The notes under the pieces were generated by a model. That model was not told the origin of the DNA. It saw only the letters and a program-made list of their open reading frames with translations, and made no database searches. Positions 29,303-56,035 of a DNA stretch of 64,000 bases are shown in pieces (position 1 is the stretch's first letter; the number at the start of each line of letters is the position of its first letter). This DNA is from Saccharicrinis fermentans DSM 9555 = JCM 21142. GTDB lineage: Bacteria; Bacteroidota; Bacteroidia; Bacteroidales; Marinilabiliaceae. Location of the stretch: contig NZ_KI912107.1 in assembly GCF_000517085.1 (NCBI RefSeq), positions 3,717,980 to 3,781,979 of the forward strand, written 5' to 3'. The position numbers and the translations under genes were made by a program.

Positions 29303-31441
29303 CCCATTTTGAGCGTTTTTAACGAATTTCAGCTTTTTTTCAGGCAAAATCGGTCGTTTTAGGGCAGTTTAATTTTGCAAGTAGCTGGTTATCAGTTGTA
29401 GCTTTTTCAAAAATCCATTTGTAGTACACAGGGGGGTATTGATTTTGAATAAATTAGATAGTTTCTTTGGGGCATGTATTTCAAAGTATCCATGCGCAAA
29501 AATCCAGAAACTGGAGTTTACTCTGGTTATTATCGATTGGTTGAGAGCTACCGCAACGAAGACGGTAGGGTATGCCACCGCACCATGGTCAATGCCGGAT
29601 ACTTAGATGATTTGAATGCAGATCAATTAGTTATAATACAAAAGCTTATCACAGAAAAGGCCGAAAACTGCAATAACCCTTTGTTCACTTATCAAGAAAG
29701 TGACGATAGCCTCGTAAATAAGTATGTTGATGAGTTTTACGATATTCTGGTAGCTAAGAAAAAAATTGACATTGTTTCAAAAACAAACAAAAAACAACAG
29801 GCAAACAAAGGCAAGGATATTCAAAATATTGATGTCAATAGCATCAAAAATAAAGATGTCCGCGAAATTGGTTCAGAGTGGATGTGCCACCAGGCATTGG
29901 AACAACTCCAGTTTGGAGGCTTTCTTGAAAAACAAGGATGGAGCGACCACGATATAAATCTGGCAAAAACACATCTTATTAGCCGAGCCGTATATCCTGC
30001 ATCCGAACTTAAAACAAGTAAATGGATAAAAGAAAACTCATCGGTATGCGAAATTACGGGAACCGACATAGGAAAAGTTACTAAAGATAAGCTGTATCGG
30101 ATTTCCAATAAATTATATGAAGTAAAAGAAGCTTTGGAAAACCACCTTTCTGTCAGAACCAACGAACTATTCGACATTAAGGACAAAATCGTATTGTACG
30201 ATCTTACCAATACTTATTTTGAAGGACGAAAAGAACACAGCAGTATAGCGAAATTTGGCCGGAGCAAGGAGAAACGGAGCGATGCAAAGTTGGTGGTGCT
30301 TGCCTTGGTGATAAATGTAGAAGGGTTTATAAAATATTCATCCATACTTGAAGGTAATATGGCCGATTCAAAAACACTTGAAGGCATGATCAACAATCTT
30401 CGGGTAAAAACATCCACATCATCAAAAAAAGCATTGGTGGTAATCGATGCGGGGATAGCCACGGATGACAACCTGAAAATGATTGCCTCAAAAGGATATG
30501 ATTATTTGTGCGTAAGCCGTGTACACCTTACTAAATACACTATTGATGCAAATGCAAAAACGGTATCAGTTTACGATAATAAAAAACGTAAAATTGAATT
30601 GTGCCGGGTTAAATCAGAAAGAAACAATGATTATTACCTCAAAGTAAAAAGCGAAGCAAAAAAGCTGAAGGAGCGTTCGATGAACGAGCAGTTCCAAGCT
30701 AGGTTCGAAGAAGGACTTCGAAAAATTAACGAAAGCCTGAGCAAAAAAGGAGGCGTAAAACGCTTGGATAAAGTTCATGAACGCATAGGTCGGTTAAAGC
30801 AGAAATACCCATCGATACAAAGATATTATAATATTGAAGTCAATGCCCTTGCGGAAGAAAAAGGTACAAGGGGCAAGAAGACACAAAAGCATCCACTTGC
30901 CTCGTCAATAGAATGGTCTGTAAAAGAAAACATTGAAATCAATGCTCGTAGTGGAATATATTTTCTGCGCACTTCACTTGAAAACTATGATGAAGATGTT
31001 TTATGGAGTTTTTACAATACCATCCGGGAGATTGAAGCTTCTTTTCGAGTTTTAAAAACCGATCTTGATTTACGCCCAATTTATCACAAAACCGATTCAA
31101 GTACAATGGCTCATCTGCACCTTGGGTTGTTGGCATATTGGGTAGTGAATACAATCAGGTATCAACTAAAAAGTAAAGGGATAAACCATGGATGGAAAGA
31201 AATCGTCCGCATAATGAATACACAAAAGGCGGTTACAACAACTGCTCAAAACGTAGAGGATCAAACTATTTCAATAAGACGTTGCTCTGAGCCTAACGAA
31301 AAAGTAAAACAATTATATGATGCTCTGAAATACAAATATGCTCCCTTTACCCGAAAAAAATCTGTAGTACACAAAATGAAAATAAAAAAATCGCAAGTGG
31401 CTACAAAACAAGAATCTCCGCCAATTTAGCTGCAATGTGGG
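29303..31441 (+). mobile_element. IS1634-family insertion sequence
   Basis: A 2139-bp element with one transposase gene, flanked by a TTAA direct repeat (29299-29302 and 31442-31445). The ends start CCCATTTTG and, on the other strand, CCCACATTG: short imperfect inverted repeats (7 of the first 9 bases match). Removing the element and one TTAA restores the GH3 reading frame, which fixes both borders. The base-level edge could shift by a base or two if the duplication differs. Confidence 0.9.
29474..31429 (+). CDS. IS1634-family transposase (DDE type)
   Basis: 651 aa, full length and uninterrupted, so the element may still be active. The catalytic core is visible: Asp in VLYDLTNTYFEG (about 242), Asp in VVIDAGIATDDN (about 325) and Glu in the REIEASFRVLKTD segment (about 521), with the large beta-strand insertion between the second Asp and Glu seen in this IS4-superfamily branch. 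It is read opposite to the GH3 gene. The stop lies 12 bases inside the right end of the element. Confidence 0.95.
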   Translation: MYFKVSMRKNPETGVYSGYYRLVESYRNEDGRVCHRTMVNAGYLDDLNADQLVIIQKLITEKAENCNNPLFTYQESDDSLVNKYVDEFYDILVAKKKIDIVSKTNKKQQANKGKDIQNIDVNSIKNKDVREIGSEWMCHQALEQLQFGGFLEKQGWSDHDINLAKTHLISRAVYPASELKTSKWIKENSSVCEITGTDIGKVTKDKLYRISNKLYEVKEALENHLSVRTNELFDIKDKIVLYDLTNTYFEGRKEHSSIAKFGRSKEKRSDAKLVVLALVINVEGFIKYSSILEGNMADSKTLEGMINNLRVKTSTSSKKALVVIDAGIATDDNLKMIASKGYDYLCVSRVHLTKYTIDANAKTVSVYDNKKRKIELCRVKSERNNDYYLKVKSEAKKLKERSMNEQFQARFEEGLRKINESLSKKGGVKRLDKVHERIGRLKQKYPSIQRYYNIEVNALAEEKGTRGKKTQKHPLASSIEWSVKENIEINARSGIYFLRTSLENYDEDVLWSFYNTIREIEASFRVLKTDLDLRPIYHKTDSSTMAHLHLGLLAYWVVNTIRYQLKSKGINHGWKEIVRIMNTQKAVTTTAQNVEDQTISIRRCSEPNEKVKQLYDALKYKYAPFTRKKSVVHKMKIKKSQVATKQESPPI

Positions 31442-33597
31442 TTAAGTTCCTTCAAAGGTCGTGTTACACTTGCATACACATCCCTCAGGTACAATTGCAC
31501 CACCTCTTCTCCAAAAACACTTCCACTATTTGTAACGGTAGCTGAAATCGTTAAGGATTCCCCTGAATTCAACACATCCTTATCAAGCTTAACATCTGAA
31601 ATATCAAACCGTGTATAACTCAACCCATATCCAAAAGGATATAAAGGTGAGTTTGATACATCTATATAAGATGATGTATAATCGCTGGGCACCGCCTCAT
31701 TAAACGGACGCCCGGTACTTTTGGTACTATAATAAACCGGTATTTGACCTACATTACGAGGAAAAGACATCACTAATTTAGCCGAAGGATTATAATCGCC
31801 AGAAAGGACATCGGCAACAGCATGCCCAGCCATCATACCCGGGTACCACGCTTCCACAATAGCATCCATATTTTCGGCTTCCCATGACAAATCCAATGGC
31901 CTTCCATTAAAGAGAACCAACACCATGGGTTTCCCTATTTTTTTAAGCTCCTTCAATAAACTACGTTGTTCGCCAGGCAGTGTAATATTCGTTCTAGAAG
32001 CAGCTTCACCCGACCAATTATACTCTTCACCCATAGCCACCAAAATAACATCACTCTTTTGGGCTATCTTTATAGCCTCTGAAAAACCACTTCTATCCGT
32101 CTCTTTGGCAGCATAAACCTGTCTGGTATTTGGATTTATCTCAGGCAAGGAGACACCCTTCGCATATAAAAACGAGACAGGGCTATTGGAATACTTTTCG
32201 TCCAAACCTTCTTTCAGAGTAATGGAACGCTCTCTATTTCCTTTAATAGCCCACTCTCCATTCAAGCTATTTCGCTCATGAACAAAAGGTCCGATAAGAG
32301 CCACTTTTTTGGCAACATCCTTTTTCAATGGTAAAATATGGTGTTCATTTTTCAGAAGAACAATAGAACGCTGGGCCGCTTTCTGTGCCACTTGAAGATA
32401 AGCGTCATTTAGCAACACCTGCTTCTCTCTTTCTTCATCGAAATAAAGATAAGGATCATCAAATAATCCCAGTAAAAATTTCATTTCCAAAATACGAGAC
32501 ACTGCCAAATCGATCTGCTTCTCGTCCACTTTCCCTTCTTCCACGAGCTCCTTCAGGTGAGAAACAAAAGCCTCACTTATCATGTCCATATCGATACCTG
32601 CATCAATGGCCAACTCAGCTCCTTCCTTTAGGTCTTTAGCTACACCATGATTAATCAGCTCCTTGATGGCTGTATAATCGGTCACCACGATACCACCAAA
32701 ATTCCACTTATGACGCAGTATATCAGAATACAGGTATTTATTGGCAGTACATGGTACACCATTCAAATCGTTAAAGGCAGTCATAAAAGACCCCACTCCC
32801 TGATCAACAGCGGCCTCAAAAGGAGGAAAATATACTTCCTGGAGACTACGTAGAGAAACATCCACAGAATGATAATCTCTACCTGCTTGAGCCGCTCCAT
32901 AGGCAACAAAATGCTTCGCACAAGCAATCATGGTATTGGGCTTCGACAGATCAGAGTAATCGTCTATACCCTGAAACCCTTTGACCCTAGCACGAGCTAC
33001 CAGCGAACCATAATAAGGATCTTCACCTGCTCCTTCCATCACACGTCCCCACCGGGGATCTCTACTAACATCTATCATGGGAGCAAAGTTCCAGGCCACA
33101 CCAGAAGCCGTAGCCTCTTCGGCAGCTATGCGTGCTGTTTGCTCCATTAAACCCAGATCCCACGAACAAGCCTCTGCCAAAGGAATCGGGAAGGTGGTTT
33201 CAAGTCCATGAATCACATCAGCGGCAAAAAGCATTGGTATTTTCAATCGCGAATATTTCATATTCTGTTCCTGCAACATCCTCAAATGCTTTGCCCCAAA
33301 AACATTGAACGTACTTCCTATCATTCCTTTTTTTAGATATTCACCCGATTTATTGTCATTCACTACTCCGGTAGCTGCAAAATTTCCTGAATATTGATTC
33401 ATCTGCCCAATCTTCTCATCCAAGGTCATCAGACGCAATAACGAATCCACCTTTGCCTCTATCAATCTATCCCCGCTATAGCTTTTAAACGTAGGAGCTT
33501 GATCCTGGCACGAACATAAGGTCACACTAATCAACATCACCATGGCCAGAACAACAACAAGCCTCTGTGCCTTAAAAATATGCATTATACTCTTCAT
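31442..33597 (-). pseudogene. GH3 beta-glucosidase, 5' part, interrupted by the IS
   Basis: Encodes the first 718 residues or so of a roughly 780-aa BglX-like GH3 lipoprotein (hydrophobic signal ending TLCSC). Nucleophile Asp307 sits in GGIVVTDYTAI; the (alpha/beta)6 sandwich and most of the FnIII-like domain follow. The IS cuts after RPLKEL and the frame then runs into it, adding NPHCS and a stop at 31426. Both catalytic domains are intact, so a truncated but unstable or partly active protein is possible. It would split glucose from oligosaccharides, possibly sophorose-type ones. Its ATG overlaps the esterase stop (ATGA), which implies translational coupling. Confidence 0.93.
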
Positions 33598-35814: not shown

Positions 35815-37680
35815 CTAATTAATTTTTATCGCTTTAATTTGTTTAGACACCCCATTCTCGTTAAAGGCCTCAATACTAAAAAAATAAGTCTTATCCACAT
35901 CCAATGACTTCATAAGATGCTCATTTTTACCATATATCATCCATGAGTTATACAATTTATCTGGCGCAATACCCCAGCATATATTATAACCCTGTGCGCC
36001 CTTAACAGCACTCCATGTAATAAAGGCATCTCTCCTGTCCTTGTATCTATTAACTTGAAAATTTTCAACTCTTGAAGGTCTCTTTCCATTACCATTACCA
36101 AACACTCTAAAGTCCGAAATTGCCAAATAAGGCGTTGGCACCTCTATATTTGTATATCGTACATACCTGGCATTGTGCGCTGTAGGAAGCTCCACATAAT
36201 CATTAGGACTATCCTTATAGGAATTGGATTTATCTACCAACATTTCCCAATGAACCCCGTCTAATGATGCCTCCATCGTATAACGATGTCTTAGATTCGG
36301 ATACCTACCATACATATTTGATTGATAGTCGTGAAAATTCACCTGCAGCGCATTAATATCCATTGGTCTTTCCAAATCTATTGTGAGCCACTCTCCTCCA
36401 CTATTGCTTTCTGAAAGCCAAAATGTTTTAACATTTTCATCAATGATGTTCGCCTTGTCTTTTTCGGTGGAAGAAGAAACAGGTTTACCGTAGGACAGAA
36501 GCATCCATCCTCGAAACATTCCTGCATTTTCCTTAGCATGAGGTGCATAATGTGGATAATCACCAAAGCGTGTATTGCTGTACATCAGTCCATCCTCATC
36601 ATAATAGAGGGGATGCATGCAAAGCCGGCGTTCCCAACGTTCGTTGATAGATACTGAGACAGAGCCAAAATGCCAGTACGATCCTGTCGTAGCCTGAACA
36701 ACACTACCATGCCCTGCTCCATTCATAAAACCTCCCGGTTTATACACCACCGGATTATGTGGCTGATAGGTATAAGGCCCCATGGGATCACTGGCCGTAT
36801 AAACACCATCGGCATACACATTGAATTCTGTACCTGGCGCAGCATACATCATGTAATAAGTACCCTTATGCTTTGTTAACCAAGCTCCTTCCATATAACC
36901 GGGGATAACAGTATCTGTATGATTTTCACCAAAACGCTCCCACCCATGCATATCTCCATGTAAGCCAAACAGTTCTGTGGTCTCTTCTTCGGCAATAAAA
37001 CGATGGTTTTTCTGAAGCCTTTTTCCCCTAATGGGAAATGTATTGGAAGAGCCCCAAAAGATATAAGCCTTATCATCATCGTCTATAAAGAAATCTGGGT
37101 CTTGCAATCCACTTAAGATGGCCGGAACAATTTTCCAATCCCCTTTTTGTGGATCATCGGTATACAACAGACTCATTTGTCCTGAAGGGTCACCTGTGAC
37201 ATAGAGTACCGAATCTTTATAATTGTGTGCTGCCGGGGCATTACATCCCTGAAAATACCACCGTTGAGGAGTTATAAAATGCCAATTCTGTAGATCACTA
37301 GAATGCCAATATCCCAGAGAGCGGGTCACAAACATATAATATTCTCCCTTAAACTCGACCACCGCAGGATCTGCTCCTGATCGGTATGATTTATCTTTGT
37401 GGGAATCATAAATCATATAAGTATAATCGACATTTATAGGATTACAATAAGTATCTGCCTGGTATTGTGCGGATACCGCAAAACTGATGAGCGATATAAA
37501 TAGTGGCTGCAAGAAAATTACTGCTTTTCCTGTCTTGGATAAGAAAGCTTCAAAGACAAGGCCATCGATATTTTTGAAACCAAGGAGTTTACTGATTGTA
37601 AATGACTGTTTCAAAAATGAGAATAACGCAGTATTTGGAGTTTTCTTGCAAAGACTAAATATTGTTATAAGTTTGTTCAT
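35815..37680 (-). CDS. GH43-like glycosidase with F5/8C and FN3 domains; signal region carries a MITE
   Basis: 621 aa. After an unusual N-terminus, a GH43-type five-bladed propeller shows its triad region: Asp in SGADPAVVEF, Asp in GLQDPDFFID and Glu in YMEGAWLTKH. It is followed by a discoidin (F5/8C) carbohydrate-binding domain (about 415-530) and an FN3-like domain to the end. Residues 8-62 are translated from an inserted 165-bp element; the former signal peptide would read MNKLITISLISFAVSAQ. A new hydrophobic stretch (AVIFLQPLFISLISFAVSAQ) remains, so export may still work, with a long N-region. ATG 37680 is used because it starts the old signal peptide. Confidence 0.85.
   Translation of the reverse strand: MNKLITIFSLCKKTPNTALFSFLKQSFTISKLLGFKNIDGLVFEAFLSKTGKAVIFLQPLFISLISFAVSAQYQADTYCNPINVDYTYMIYDSHKDKSYRSGADPAVVEFKGEYYMFVTRSLGYWHSSDLQNWHFITPQRWYFQGCNAPAAHNYKDSVLYVTGDPSGQMSLLYTDDPQKGDWKIVPAILSGLQDPDFFIDDDDKAYIFWGSSNTFPIRGKRLQKNHRFIAEEETTELFGLHGDMHGWERFGENHTDTVIPGYMEGAWLTKHKGTYYMMYAAPGTEFNVYADGVYTASDPMGPYTYQPHNPVVYKPGGFMNGAGHGSVVQATTGSYWHFGSVSVSINERWERRLCMHPLYYDEDGLMYSNTRFGDYPHYAPHAKENAGMFRGWMLLSYGKPVSSSTEKDKANIIDENVKTFWLSESNSGGEWLTIDLERPMDINALQVNFHDYQSNMYGRYPNLRHRYTMEASLDGVHWEMLVDKSNSYKDSPNDYVELPTAHNARYVRYTNIEVPTPYLAISDFRVFGNGNGKRPSRVENFQVNRYKDRRDAFITWSAVKGAQGYNICWGIAPDKLYNSWMIYGKNEHLMKSLDVDKTYFFSIEAFNENGVSKQIKAIKIN
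37495..37659 (-). mobile_element. MITE-like element, copy 1, in frame inside the GH43-like gene
   Basis: 165 bp with imperfect terminal inverted repeats whose inner core is TGCAAGAAAA / TTTTCTTGCA. ATAT or TA flanks suggest a short target duplication. It adds exactly 55 sense codons and no stop, so the host frame survives. By hand alignment it differs from copy 2 at about eight positions. It carries no transposase and its ends do not match the IS1634 element of this window. Confidence 0.85.
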
Positions 37681-37721
37681 ATTAAAAGTATCTATGATTA
37701 TTACCTTGGTCATTTATTCTA

Positions 37722-52651: not shown

Positions 52652-52654
52652 CTA

Positions 52655-52819
52655 TTTAGTCTTTGCAAGAAAACTCCAAATACTGCGTTATTCTCATTTT
52701 TGAAACAGTCATTTACAATCAGTAAACTCCTTGGTTTCAAAAATATCGAAAGCCTTGTCTTTGAAGCTTTCTTATCAAAGACTGAAAAAACAGTCCTTTT
52801 CTTGCAGCCACTATTTATA
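52655..52819 (+). mobile_element. MITE-like element, copy 2, at the 3' end of carB
   Basis: 165 bp and about 95% identical to copy 1 but in opposite orientation. The terminal repeats pair (TGCAAGAAAA at the left, TTTTCTTGCA at the right). Its right end supplies the carB stop codon (TAG at 52811-52813 on the minus strand), so the last residue or two of CarB come from the element. Confidence 0.85.
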
Positions 52820-55800
52820 TTCTTGCCAGCTCTTGATACTTATTTCATCCTGTCCCATTTTACAAAATGCTTGAATAAAAGCACTGGCCAAACGGGCATT
52901 GGTAATCAAAGGTATATTAAAGTCGATGGCATTACGACGGATCTTATACCCATTTTTTAGTTCATTCGTACTTAGGTTCTTAGGTATATTGATTACCAGA
53001 TCGATTTCCTTTTCCCGAATCATTTCCAGTGAGTTTGGACGTTTATCCGGCTCACTTGGCCAATAAATCAATGTTGTATCCACACCGTTTTCCGCAAAGA
53101 ATTTATGAGTACCACCGGTAGCAAAAATATTAAATCCTTTTTCCTTCAATAAGCGGGCACTCTCCAGCAGTTCCATTTTAGATCTCAATGGACCCGAAGA
53201 AATCAATATATTTTTTTTAGGAATTGTATAACCTACCGAGAGCATTGAAGTAAGTATGGCCTCATCAAAATTATCTCCAATACAACCTACCTCACCTGTT
53301 GATGACATATCCACACCCAATACAGGATCGGCCTTGGCCAAACGCGCAAAAGAGAACTGAGGCGCTTTAATACCTACACAATCCAAGTCGAACAAATTTT
53401 TATTGGGTTTTTGCACATCCAGTCCCAACATCACCTGTGTGGCCAGATCAATCAGATTCACTTTCAATATCTTAGACACAAAGGGAAAACTACGCGAAGC
53501 CCTTAAATTACATTCAATAACCTTCAGCTCGTTATTTTTACCCAGCAACTGCATATTAAAGGGTCCTGAAATATGTAAGGCTTTGGCAATCTCCCTGGCG
53601 ATTTTCTTCACCCTTCGCATCGTTTCTATGTACAATTTCTGTGGAGGGAAAACGATGGTTGCATCACCAGAATGCACCCCTGCAAACTCAACATGCTCAG
53701 AGATTGCATAGGCCACTAATTCACCGTCTTTAGCCACGGCATCCACCTCAATTTCTTTGGCTTCCTCAATAAATTCAGAAACCACCACAGGATATTCCTT
53801 AGATACATTGGCTGCCAAGGTCAAGAAATGCTCCAGCTCATCCTTATTACTAACCACATTCATGGCTGCACCGGAAAGCACATAACTAGGACGAACCAAA
53901 ACCGGGAAACCTACTTCCTCAGAAAAGGCAATAATATCATCCACAGAAGTCAGCTCACTCCAACGTGGCTGGTCAATATTTAACTCATCCAACATGGCCG
54001 AGAACTTCTGACGGTTTTCAGCCCTGTCAATATTTTCGGGAGAAGTACCCAATATAGGCACTTGCTGACCATTCAGCTTCATAGCCAGGTTATTCGGTAT
54101 CTGTCCTCCCACCGAAACAATCACACCCTTAGGAGCCTCCAGGTCTATAACATCCAGTACACGCTCAAAGGAAAGCTCATCAAAATATAAGCGATCACAA
54201 ATATCGTAGTCGGTACTCACCGTTTCAGGATTGTAATTAATCATTACCGAACGGTATTTCTGCTCACGAATGGTATTAAGCGCATTCACACTACACCAGT
54301 CAAACTCCACCGAACTACCAATACGATAAGCCCCACTACCTAAAACAACAACCGACTTACCATCCTTCTCATAATCAATATCATGCTCACTACCGCTATA
54401 GGTCATATACAGGTAATTGATTTGCGCAGGGAACTCACCCGCCATGGTATCAATTTGTTTCACAACCGGAAGTATATTACGTTTTTTACGTTCGGCCCTC
54501 ACTTTTATCAAGTCATTTCCAATCACTTCGCTGGTACTCTTAAAGACACAACGAGCTATTTGAAAATCGGAATATCCCATACGTTTTGCATTACGTAGCA
54601 AATCATCGGGGAGATCCTCCAACTTCGAATACTTTTTAAGTTCTATCTCTAGATTACTTATATTCTTCAGTTTTTCCAGGAACCAATGATCAATCTTACT
54701 CAAGTCATGAATTTCATCCACACTCATTCCCAGAGAAAAAGCCTCTGCAATGGCATATATACGCTGATCCGTTGGTTCGGCCAGCTCTGTTTTAACATCA
54801 ATTCCTTTCAAGGGTTGGTTGGCCACAAAACCATGCATCCCTTGTCCAATCATACGCAACCCTTTTTGAATTGCCTCCTCAAAAGTACGACCGATAGACA
54901 TGATCTCACCCACCGATTTCATACTACTACCAATCTGCTTACTAACGCCGTTAAACTTATTCAAATCCCAGCGCGGAATCTTACATACCACATAATCTAA
55001 GGCAGGCTCAAAAAAGGTGGTGGTGGTTTTGGTAACAGAGTTTTTCAGTTCATGCAAACCATATCCCAAACCAAGTTTTGCTGCCACAAACGCCAATGGA
55101 TATCCGGTAGCCTTTGAAGCCAAAGCACTGGAGCGTGACAAGCGGGCATTTACCTCGATAACACGATAATCTTCCGATTCGGGATCCAAAGCATACTGCA
55201 CATTACACTCTCCCACCACGCCAATATGACGTATAATTTTTATGGCCAACTCACGCAGCTTATGATATTCGGAGTTGGATAAAGTTTGTGATGGTGCAAC
55301 CACAATACTTTCTCCCGTATGAATCCCCAATGGGTCAAAATTTTCCATATTACAGACCGTAATACAGTTATTATACTTATCACGAACCACCTCGTATTCA
55401 ACCTCTTTCCAACCTTTCAACGATTCCTCAACCAATATTTGATCCGAATAAGAAAATGCATTTTCTGCTCGCGAAATTAACTCCTCCTTGTTGTAGCAAA
55501 ATCCGCTACCCATACCTCCAAGCGTATAAGCCGCCCTAACAATGATAGGAAAACCAATTTCATCAGAAGCCTTCACTGCCTCTTCCACAGAGGTTACAGC
55601 CAAACTAATGGGTGTTTTTACATCAATCTCTCTCAGCTTGTTCGCAAAAATCTCACGGTCTTCGGTATTAATAATCGACTGCACCGGCGTTCCCAGCACT
55701 TCCAGATTATATTTTTCTAATACGCCCGACAAATAAAGCTTGGTTCCACAATTTAAGGCTGTTTGTCCTCCAAAAGCCAATAATATACCCTGGGGTCTTT

Positions 55801-56035
55801 CTTTCTTAATGACCTCTTCCACAAAATATGGAGTCACGGGTAAAAAATAAATTTTATCGGCAATCTTGTCAGAAGTTTGAACAGTTGCAATATTTGGATT
55901 AACCAAAACCGTTTCAATACCTTCTTCTTTTAATGCTTTAAGGGCTTGCGAACCTGAATAGTCAAACTCTCCCGCTTCGCCGATTTTTAGCGCACCCGAA
56001 CCAAGTATTACTACTTTTTTAATGTCTTTCCTCAT
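52811..56035 (-). CDS. carB: Carbamoyl phosphate synthase, large subunit
   Basis: 1074 aa, full length. Two ATP-grasp halves (N-terminal EFDYSGSQALKALKEEG; second half VLGSGAYRIGSSVEFDWCS), oligomerisation region and a C-terminal MGS-type allosteric domain with VINIPKNLS. It makes carbamoyl phosphate for pyrimidines and arginine with a CarA partner that is not in this window. It diverges from argR. The last codons and stop lie in a MITE. A TATTTTTG -7 element on the minus strand (56233-56240) would give a leader near 190 bases with a GAAATTCAG-type hairpin at 56107-56129. Confidence 0.97.
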   Translation of the reverse strand: MRKDIKKVVILGSGALKIGEAGEFDYSGSQALKALKEEGIETVLVNPNIATVQTSDKIADKIYFLPVTPYFVEEVIKKERPQGILLAFGGQTALNCGTKLYLSGVLEKYNLEVLGTPVQSIINTEDREIFANKLREIDVKTPISLAVTSVEEAVKASDEIGFPIIVRAAYTLGGMGSGFCYNKEELISRAENAFSYSDQILVEESLKGWKEVEYEVVRDKYNNCITVCNMENFDPLGIHTGESIVVAPSQTLSNSEYHKLRELAIKIIRHIGVVGECNVQYALDPESEDYRVIEVNARLSRSSALASKATGYPLAFVAAKLGLGYGLHELKNSVTKTTTTFFEPALDYVVCKIPRWDLNKFNGVSKQIGSSMKSVGEIMSIGRTFEEAIQKGLRMIGQGMHGFVANQPLKGIDVKTELAEPTDQRIYAIAEAFSLGMSVDEIHDLSKIDHWFLEKLKNISNLEIELKKYSKLEDLPDDLLRNAKRMGYSDFQIARCVFKSTSEVIGNDLIKVRAERKKRNILPVVKQIDTMAGEFPAQINYLYMTYSGSEHDIDYEKDGKSVVVLGSGAYRIGSSVEFDWCSVNALNTIREQKYRSVMINYNPETVSTDYDICDRLYFDELSFERVLDVIDLEAPKGVIVSVGGQIPNNLAMKLNGQQVPILGTSPENIDRAENRQKFSAMLDELNIDQPRWSELTSVDDIIAFSEEVGFPVLVRPSYVLSGAAMNVVSNKDELEHFLTLAANVSKEYPVVVSEFIEEAKEIEVDAVAKDGELVAYAISEHVEFAGVHSGDATIVFPPQKLYIETMRRVKKIAREIAKALHISGPFNMQLLGKNNELKVIECNLRASRSFPFVSKILKVNLIDLATQVMLGLDVQKPNKNLFDLDCVGIKAPQFSFARLAKADPVLGVDMSSTGEVGCIGDNFDEAILTSMLSVGYTIPKKNILISSGPLRSKMELLESARLLKEKGFNIFATGGTHKFFAENGVDTTLIYWPSEPDKRPNSLEMIREKEIDLVINIPKNLSTNELKNGYKIRRNAIDFNIPLITNARLASAFIQAFCKMGQDEISIKSWQEYK

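Follow-up and report, generated by a model that had tools for sequence, protein, structure and literature searches.

An in-frame MITE copy in the signal peptide of a GH43 enzyme of Saccharicrinis fermentans, and relatives of the element in other signal peptides

We detected a MITE copy inserted in frame in the signal peptide of a GH43 enzyme gene of Saccharicrinis fermentans, in a 64,000-nucleotide stretch of the genome (referred to below as the window). In three other genomes, a relative of the element likewise occupies an N-terminal signal peptide in frame; the host proteins are an LptE lipoprotein, a GH30 lipoprotein and a TPR protein. Taken as a whole, we regard it as probable that a MITE mobilised in trans entered the GH43 signal peptide, that the resulting leader still works, that the insert is cleaved off together with it, and that the signal peptide is the segment of the protein that tolerates such an insert.

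Results

The insertion in the GH43 leader

The gene carrying the insertion (35815..37680, minus strand) encodes a protein with GH43 and F5/8 type C domains (Pfam), and its neighbours are SusC- and SusD-like genes, two PF10091 enzymes, a GH3 gene and an esterase-like gene. The likely start is MNKLIT at 37680, from which 621 codons are open; the frame is also open farther upstream, from an ATG at 37713. At window 29474-33597, the end of a DDE transposase gene (PF01609) overlaps the final bases of a GH3 gene, the C-terminus of which looks truncated, and the same transposase recurs as a fragment in locus L036.

The MITE core of 153 bp (37503..37655; the GTGG end is the left end) is read by the GH43 gene in the opposite sense. 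It is bounded by imperfect 15-bp terminal repeats, GTGGCTGCAAGAAAA on the left (37503..37517) and TTTTCTTGCAAAGAC on the right (37641..37655), and flanked by perfect 6-bp target duplications TAAATA (37497..37502 and 37656..37661), the target being TATTTA in the sense of the gene. If one TAAATA is taken as the original target, the core and the other TAAATA together add 159 bp or 53 codons to the GH43 frame (37503..37661, minus strand); the added stretch is open in the phase used, and the gene remains one frame. An earlier note on this DNA had described an in-frame MITE with terminal inverted repeats and no stop at the coding start, which we confirmed, and had put its size at 165 bp and 55 codons, which is replaced by the values above. 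It had also proposed that a short signal peptide was split; the split is at MNKLITIF|ISLISFAVSAQ, and the leader without the insert would read MNKLITIFISLISFAVSAQ, not MNKLITISLISFAVSAQ as suggested there. The hydrophobic codons that the note ascribed to the element are indeed supplied by it, AVIFLQPLF adjoining the native ISLISFAVSA. The composite leader comprises 71 codons (37468..37680, minus strand) and should be cut at AVSA|QYQ, a site placed by homology with the leaders of homologues.

The GH43 copy has seven private differences from the consensus, compared with at most four in most of the 51 copies compared, and is thus not among the newest; these differences also argue against collapse of the assembly onto another copy, and an assembly artefact at this place was judged unlikely. 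The comparison covered 51 of the 52 copies of 153 bp, since copy 3223632 is cut by the end of its locus, which also makes its ORF test unreliable. A recent near-neutral or crippling accident, with the frame open by luck, the enzyme poorly exported and the gene decaying, would fit the perfect duplications and the fact that five of the seven private substitutions alter an amino acid, about what neutral drift would give. The intact frame of 621 codons and the number of private differences speak against it, and we consider such an accident unlikely.

All seven private substitutions fall in core positions 13-66 (0-based), whereas 82 of the 162 substitutions do so in 47 other copies that differ at no more than 15 places (Fisher p 0.015). 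The comparison leaves out three more divergent copies, the result is weak, and we base no claim on it. The private changes include E to G and T to A, beside the new hydrophobic core, which would suit a signal peptide, if weakly. The E of the consensus is variable elsewhere too (E in 42 of 51 copies, K in six; in this residue comparison, alignment or orientation is poor for a few copies, among them 404160, 3143849 and 986746).

GH43 homologues without the element

The GH43 homologue loci from other genomes numbered 81 (52 in named genomes and 29 in further relatives), with 34-76% identity after the leader. The element was absent from all 81 (blastn E<0.01, tblastn E<0.1), and the 80 with a readable N-terminus have a short leader without inserted residues, locus L157 being unreadable there. 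The nearest homologues, from Labilibaculum, are about 75% identical and have leaders such as MLRLLTILLTFVSVSAFAQ. A search for element DNA in nine named genomes gave weak or partial matches in three, each of them a Labilibaculum. The orthologue comparison therefore bears out the view of the earlier note that the insertion is foreign to the protein, and the reading of the 53 residues as a native part of GH43 is rejected.

The MITE family in the genome

The S. fermentans genome holds the MITE family in roughly 90 places. A DNA search gave at least 40 strong matches to the element, and two profile searches found 93 and 94 places, a few copies being counted as two. The right-end pattern (at most 3 mismatches) had 193 matches, compared with 5 for a reversed control, and a second end-pattern scan had 183 compared with 2; both ends are alike in these counts and one copy may count twice. 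Among 110 own-genome loci we found 85 convergent end pairs, 52 of them with a core of exactly 153 bp, and identical 6-bp flanks were present in 64 of the 85 pairs and in 37 of the 52 cores of 153 bp. The repeat matches, the excess of end patterns over reversed controls and the paired ends with identical flanks show that the family is not a product of chance. It has the features of a MITE: short length, no transposase gene, terminal inverted repeats, target duplication and multiple dispersed copies. The remaining end pairs are length variants (e.g. 54, 68-69, 254-255 and 344-345 bp) or IS copies; pairs of 1327 and 42 bp were set aside as chance or unclear.

The longer variants (L040, L041 and L043 of 254-255 bp, L039 and L094 of 344-345 bp) contain, inside the MITE hairpin, one insert or two, each about 90-100 bp long, whose ends are similar (...GAGTTCCATATGACCATT...CATATG); the inserts look like another family of small repeats that is nested within the MITE. 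At C3:3222041-3225387, three MITE copies with like flanks at a spacing of 1591 bp are a tandem triplication that carried the MITE along.

Six of the paired copies belong to the IS: five measure 1841-1842 bp and the sixth is a deletion form of 1122 bp, and five of the six have identical flanks. The intact IS (1.84 kb) encodes a 513-aa transposase (NCBIfam ISNCY_1, E 4.7e-120). Its ends, GTCCTTGCAAGAAAA and GTCTCGGCAAGAAAA, are similar to the MITE ends, and the TANNTA target is common to both; otherwise the IS and MITE sequences share only short matches, the best of 12 bp, at the ends. From these sequence features we infer that the ISNCY-type transposase would move the MITE in trans.

Position of the copies relative to genes

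Of the 77 own-genome copies tested, 55 are outside any ORF of 100 codons, and 10 of the other 22 coincide with the final codon of a frame. An ORF of at least 100 codons is kept open by 7 of the 77, and GH43 is the sole intact recognisable gene among them to be interrupted inside. Copies 129852 and 4738127 interrupt frames that look broken, which indicates that genes are also struck outside signal peptides. Coding sites account for 247 of the 320 TANNTA sites in the window, and few copies are found inside genes despite this; the pattern points to loss of in-gene copies elsewhere and tolerance in signal peptides, although the numbers are small (at least four cases). Of the 247 coding sites, only 5 (about 2%) are within the opening 25 codons of the 12 window genes with a signal peptide (judged by eye), a share that speaks against chance as the source of the signal-peptide cases. 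An insertion preference for signal peptides is not favoured: the TANNTA density there is 5.6/kb, based on these 5 sites, compared with 4.5/kb in the coding DNA of the window.

Several observations concern the sites themselves. In the ten copies on a last codon, the TANNTA target covers part of the stop codon or borders it, and a second MITE copy of the window (52653-52817) lies at the end of a carB-like gene (52811-56035). Four of the 77 own copies sit in the loop of a palindrome with flanking arms of at least 9 bp, compared with none of 313 other TANNTA sites of the window: L005 (4989462), L010 (138344), L020 and L028 (3225223, 3222041), two of which are tandem duplicates of one site. The palindromes around these four copies resemble terminators. 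At L023 (own 129852), the copy lies at the junction of two pieces of an apparent sodium/solute symporter (by eye) with the middle missing, as if insertion and deletion were combined.

The element in other genomes, its hairpin and its reading frame

With the genome of the window included in each count, element DNA matched 28 of 100 relatives, a minus-frame peptide profile matched 31 of 393 genomes of the order, and two peptide profiles matched 19 and 20 of 71 genomes of the family. Identical 6-bp flanks were found in 16 of 31 copies from relatives. In an alignment of 33 copies, two of them from the own genome, a hairpin of 38 pairs has 96.2% of cells paired, compared with 41-51% when slid, and changes on both sides were detected at 18 of the 38 pairs. 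None of 500 shuffles reached the observed hairpin values, although related sequences can exceed shuffles in this test. The covarying hairpin is the clearest constraint that these sequences suggest for the family.

The reading frame gives another picture. We considered whether the element is a protein-coding module selected for its peptide, like a small mobile translated domain. Third positions of the minus-frame codons vary more than the others (0.138 vs 0.061 and 0.088; permutation p 0.0038, for the 19 of 33 sequences of exactly 153 nt and with a permutation that ignores pairing and relatedness), and the own-genome consensus is open on both strands, as only 2% of its dinucleotide shuffles are; both would be expected of such a module. 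The minus frame is open in only 17 of the 33 aligned rows (two of them own copies), 13 rows have a length not divisible by three, the 254-bp length variants (6 pairs) break the frame, and the covarying hairpin constrains the same sites. Selection for the peptide is thus highly improbable. Open frames are not rare in themselves, since 6 and 23% of dinucleotide shuffles of the element stay open on one given strand, which counts against our main reading of the GH43 insertion.

Of the two strands of the element, the one present in the GH43 mRNA forms the weaker hairpin (-39.2 vs -44.6 kcal/mol). The conserved hairpin (A1 columns 43-167, 50-160, 52-158 and 53-157) has many G-U pairs on the plus strand of the element, which hints that RNA or a single strand of the plus sense is what selection sees. 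A known RNA family was rejected as an explanation: Rfam 15 gave two matches below the gathering score in nine loci, neither of them over the element.

Recurrence in other signal peptides

The LptE lipoprotein in genome G091 (PF04390, E 1.9e-19) begins MIF[SLCKKTPNTALRSFLKQSFTSSKLLVFKNFASLVFDAFLSKTGKKVVFAFF]LVTLSSCGIYSF, where the bracketed part is the element. It is the sole match to the element-bearing LptE at E<=1e-8 in this 95% complete genome, and in G213, the one other genome searched in the G091 family, LptE is 65% identical and lacks the element. The lipobox LVTLSSC stands directly behind the element, and the hydrophobic run before it must therefore come from element codons. The TPR protein, found in a genome of the same genus as the window (G008), begins METLKIIHF[CRKMPNTSLFLFLKQSFTKSKLLDFKNFKSLVFDDFLSKSRFVII]LFLISITLSTNAQD, again with the element in brackets. 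The GH30 lipoprotein of G048 (PF02055, E 2.3e-44) begins MIN, continues with the element in the other sense and then reads NKIFYVTFFSLMFMSCGSC. Its orthologue in the congeneric genome G043, 86% identical, begins ATGATAAATAAAGTG and preserves the empty site with one TAAATA, and the insert is absent from all 11 GH30 homologues examined, this orthologue and ten more (12 loci of the 33 places listed, one being the gene itself).

Terminal repeats and duplication have decayed in the LptE and TPR copies, which makes the insertion history of these two less clear; their frames are still open, and this persistence with decayed ends also counts against a mere recent accident.

The LptE case bears as well on the possibility that translation of GH43 starts inside or after the element, so that the element would merely be a new 5' leader. 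In-frame TTG codons within the element (FSF-TTG-AAA, TTC-TTG-CAG) could serve such a start, while the element part of the GH43 frame has no in-frame ATG or GTG, and in LptE the lipobox depends on the hydrophobic run encoded by the element. We consider an internal start quite improbable and prefer translation through the element from MNKLIT.

Counting own and related genomes, at least 19 loci have an open frame of at least 150 codons that contains the element. Four of these have an internal stop or an assembly gap (G005:C250, G424:C207, G038:C7, G043:C96). The remaining 15 listed loci include the four signal-peptide cases, three that lead into genes for which a start downstream of the element is plausible (own 665886, G048:C216, G411:C4), two that precede gene-like frames with an unclear start (own 2015169 and 440388), one C-terminal extension (own 3143849) and five that are decayed or unclassified (own 129852, 2696777, 3223632, 3225223 and 4738127). 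Among the loci listed, the assignable in-frame fusions to recognisable genes are four to a signal peptide and one to a C-terminus (TonB-receptor-like, by eye); GH43, LptE, GH30 and TPR were recognised by Pfam and the others by eye.

Discussion

The structure of the element suggests how the composite leader could work. Both open frames of the element exit via VFLQ-type residues of the terminal repeat (VVFLQPL or GVFLQRL, depending on the sense). In GH43 the MITE exits with SKTGKAVIFLQPLF, basic and then hydrophobic, which together with the native ISLISFAVSA would rebuild the n- and h-regions. The best 11-residue hydropathy window of the composite leader, LFISLISFAVS, scores 2.35, compared with 2.63 in the empty leader; it is preceded by SKTGKAVIFLQP, with a net charge of +2 in the 12 residues before it. 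A basic n-region and a hydrophobic core before the cut site are thus present as judged by hydropathy, and the element-bearing n-region, about 55 residues long, is unusual for a signal peptide. The leader would still work because both regions are rebuilt; signal peptidase I would then remove element and leader together, and the mature GH43 enzyme would be unchanged. Export and cleavage of the enzyme with this leader are predictions from its sequence. In the lipoproteins, signal peptidase II would remove the insert. Copies inside genes would mostly be lost, and an in-frame copy may survive in a signal peptide (four cases in four genomes) because this segment is flexible in sequence and discarded.

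MITEs fused in frame to proteins are known, as described for Rickettsia palindromic elements, ERIC, QMITEs and YPAL/RU-2 (PMC10969869, PMC2229807, PMC5896051). The Rickettsia palindromic elements are about 100-150 bp long, palindromic, with an open frame, and fused in frame to conserved genes (PMC10969869, PMC2229807). The present MITE resembles them in forming a hairpin, in its size class of about 100-150 bp, in its open frame and in its in-frame fusion. It differs in that most own-genome copies are intergenic or coincide with a stop codon. In-frame fusion within conserved proteins, taken as typical of a large part of the Rickettsia copies, is rare here: 7 of 77 own copies keep an ORF of at least 100 codons open, and one of the seven interrupts the interior of an intact recognisable gene. 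Its intact in-frame cases are found mainly in signal peptides, whereas the Rickettsia elements are described as inserted inside enzymes and retained in the protein. We also count as a difference that the genome holds an IS with similar ends and target.

YPAL/RU-2 of Yersinia (YPO1552) forms part of the predicted signal peptide of a putative exported protein (PMC2229807). Like the present MITE it codes for part of a signal peptide; in the Yersinia case a putative new protein was proposed, whereas the present element interrupts signal peptides that already existed, in conserved exported proteins with homologues free of the element. A MITE-coded signal peptide as such therefore has a precedent in that report (PMC2229807), and the recurrence in conserved exported proteins appears to be the new part. 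The QMITEs of Coxiella are inserted in frame in coding sequences as here, e.g. at the 3' end, and the terms 'signal peptide' and 'signal sequence' have no occurrence in the main text of PMC5896051. In the open-licence literature, we found neither a description of the present hairpin MITE family nor one of repeated insertion into signal peptides that belong to conserved exported proteins.

The IS1202 family, formerly placed in ISNCY, is described as having a DDE transposase and short duplications, its Acinetobacter members having 5'-TGT...ACA-3' ends, 5-bp duplications and dif-like targets (PMC10132070). As the family is defined there, the present IS differs in its ends (GTC...GAC) and in its 6-bp TANNTA duplications.

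A broader proposal, which we put forward tentatively and hold as possible rather than probable, is that signal peptides repeatedly serve as a refuge for translated mobile DNA, with the element acting as a ready-made spacer and signal peptidase erasing the insert, and that in one lineage a copy supplies the hydrophobic core of the LptE leader. LptE is essential in other bacteria and expected to be so here; it takes part in outer-membrane biogenesis, and in this lineage some of its targeting signal appears to come from the element. With their element-free homologues, these genes would be natural experiments on how long and how odd bacterial signal peptides may be. If the proposal is true, it would give a rule for the survival of translated transposons, namely that they persist in a segment that is removed from the precursor and discarded.
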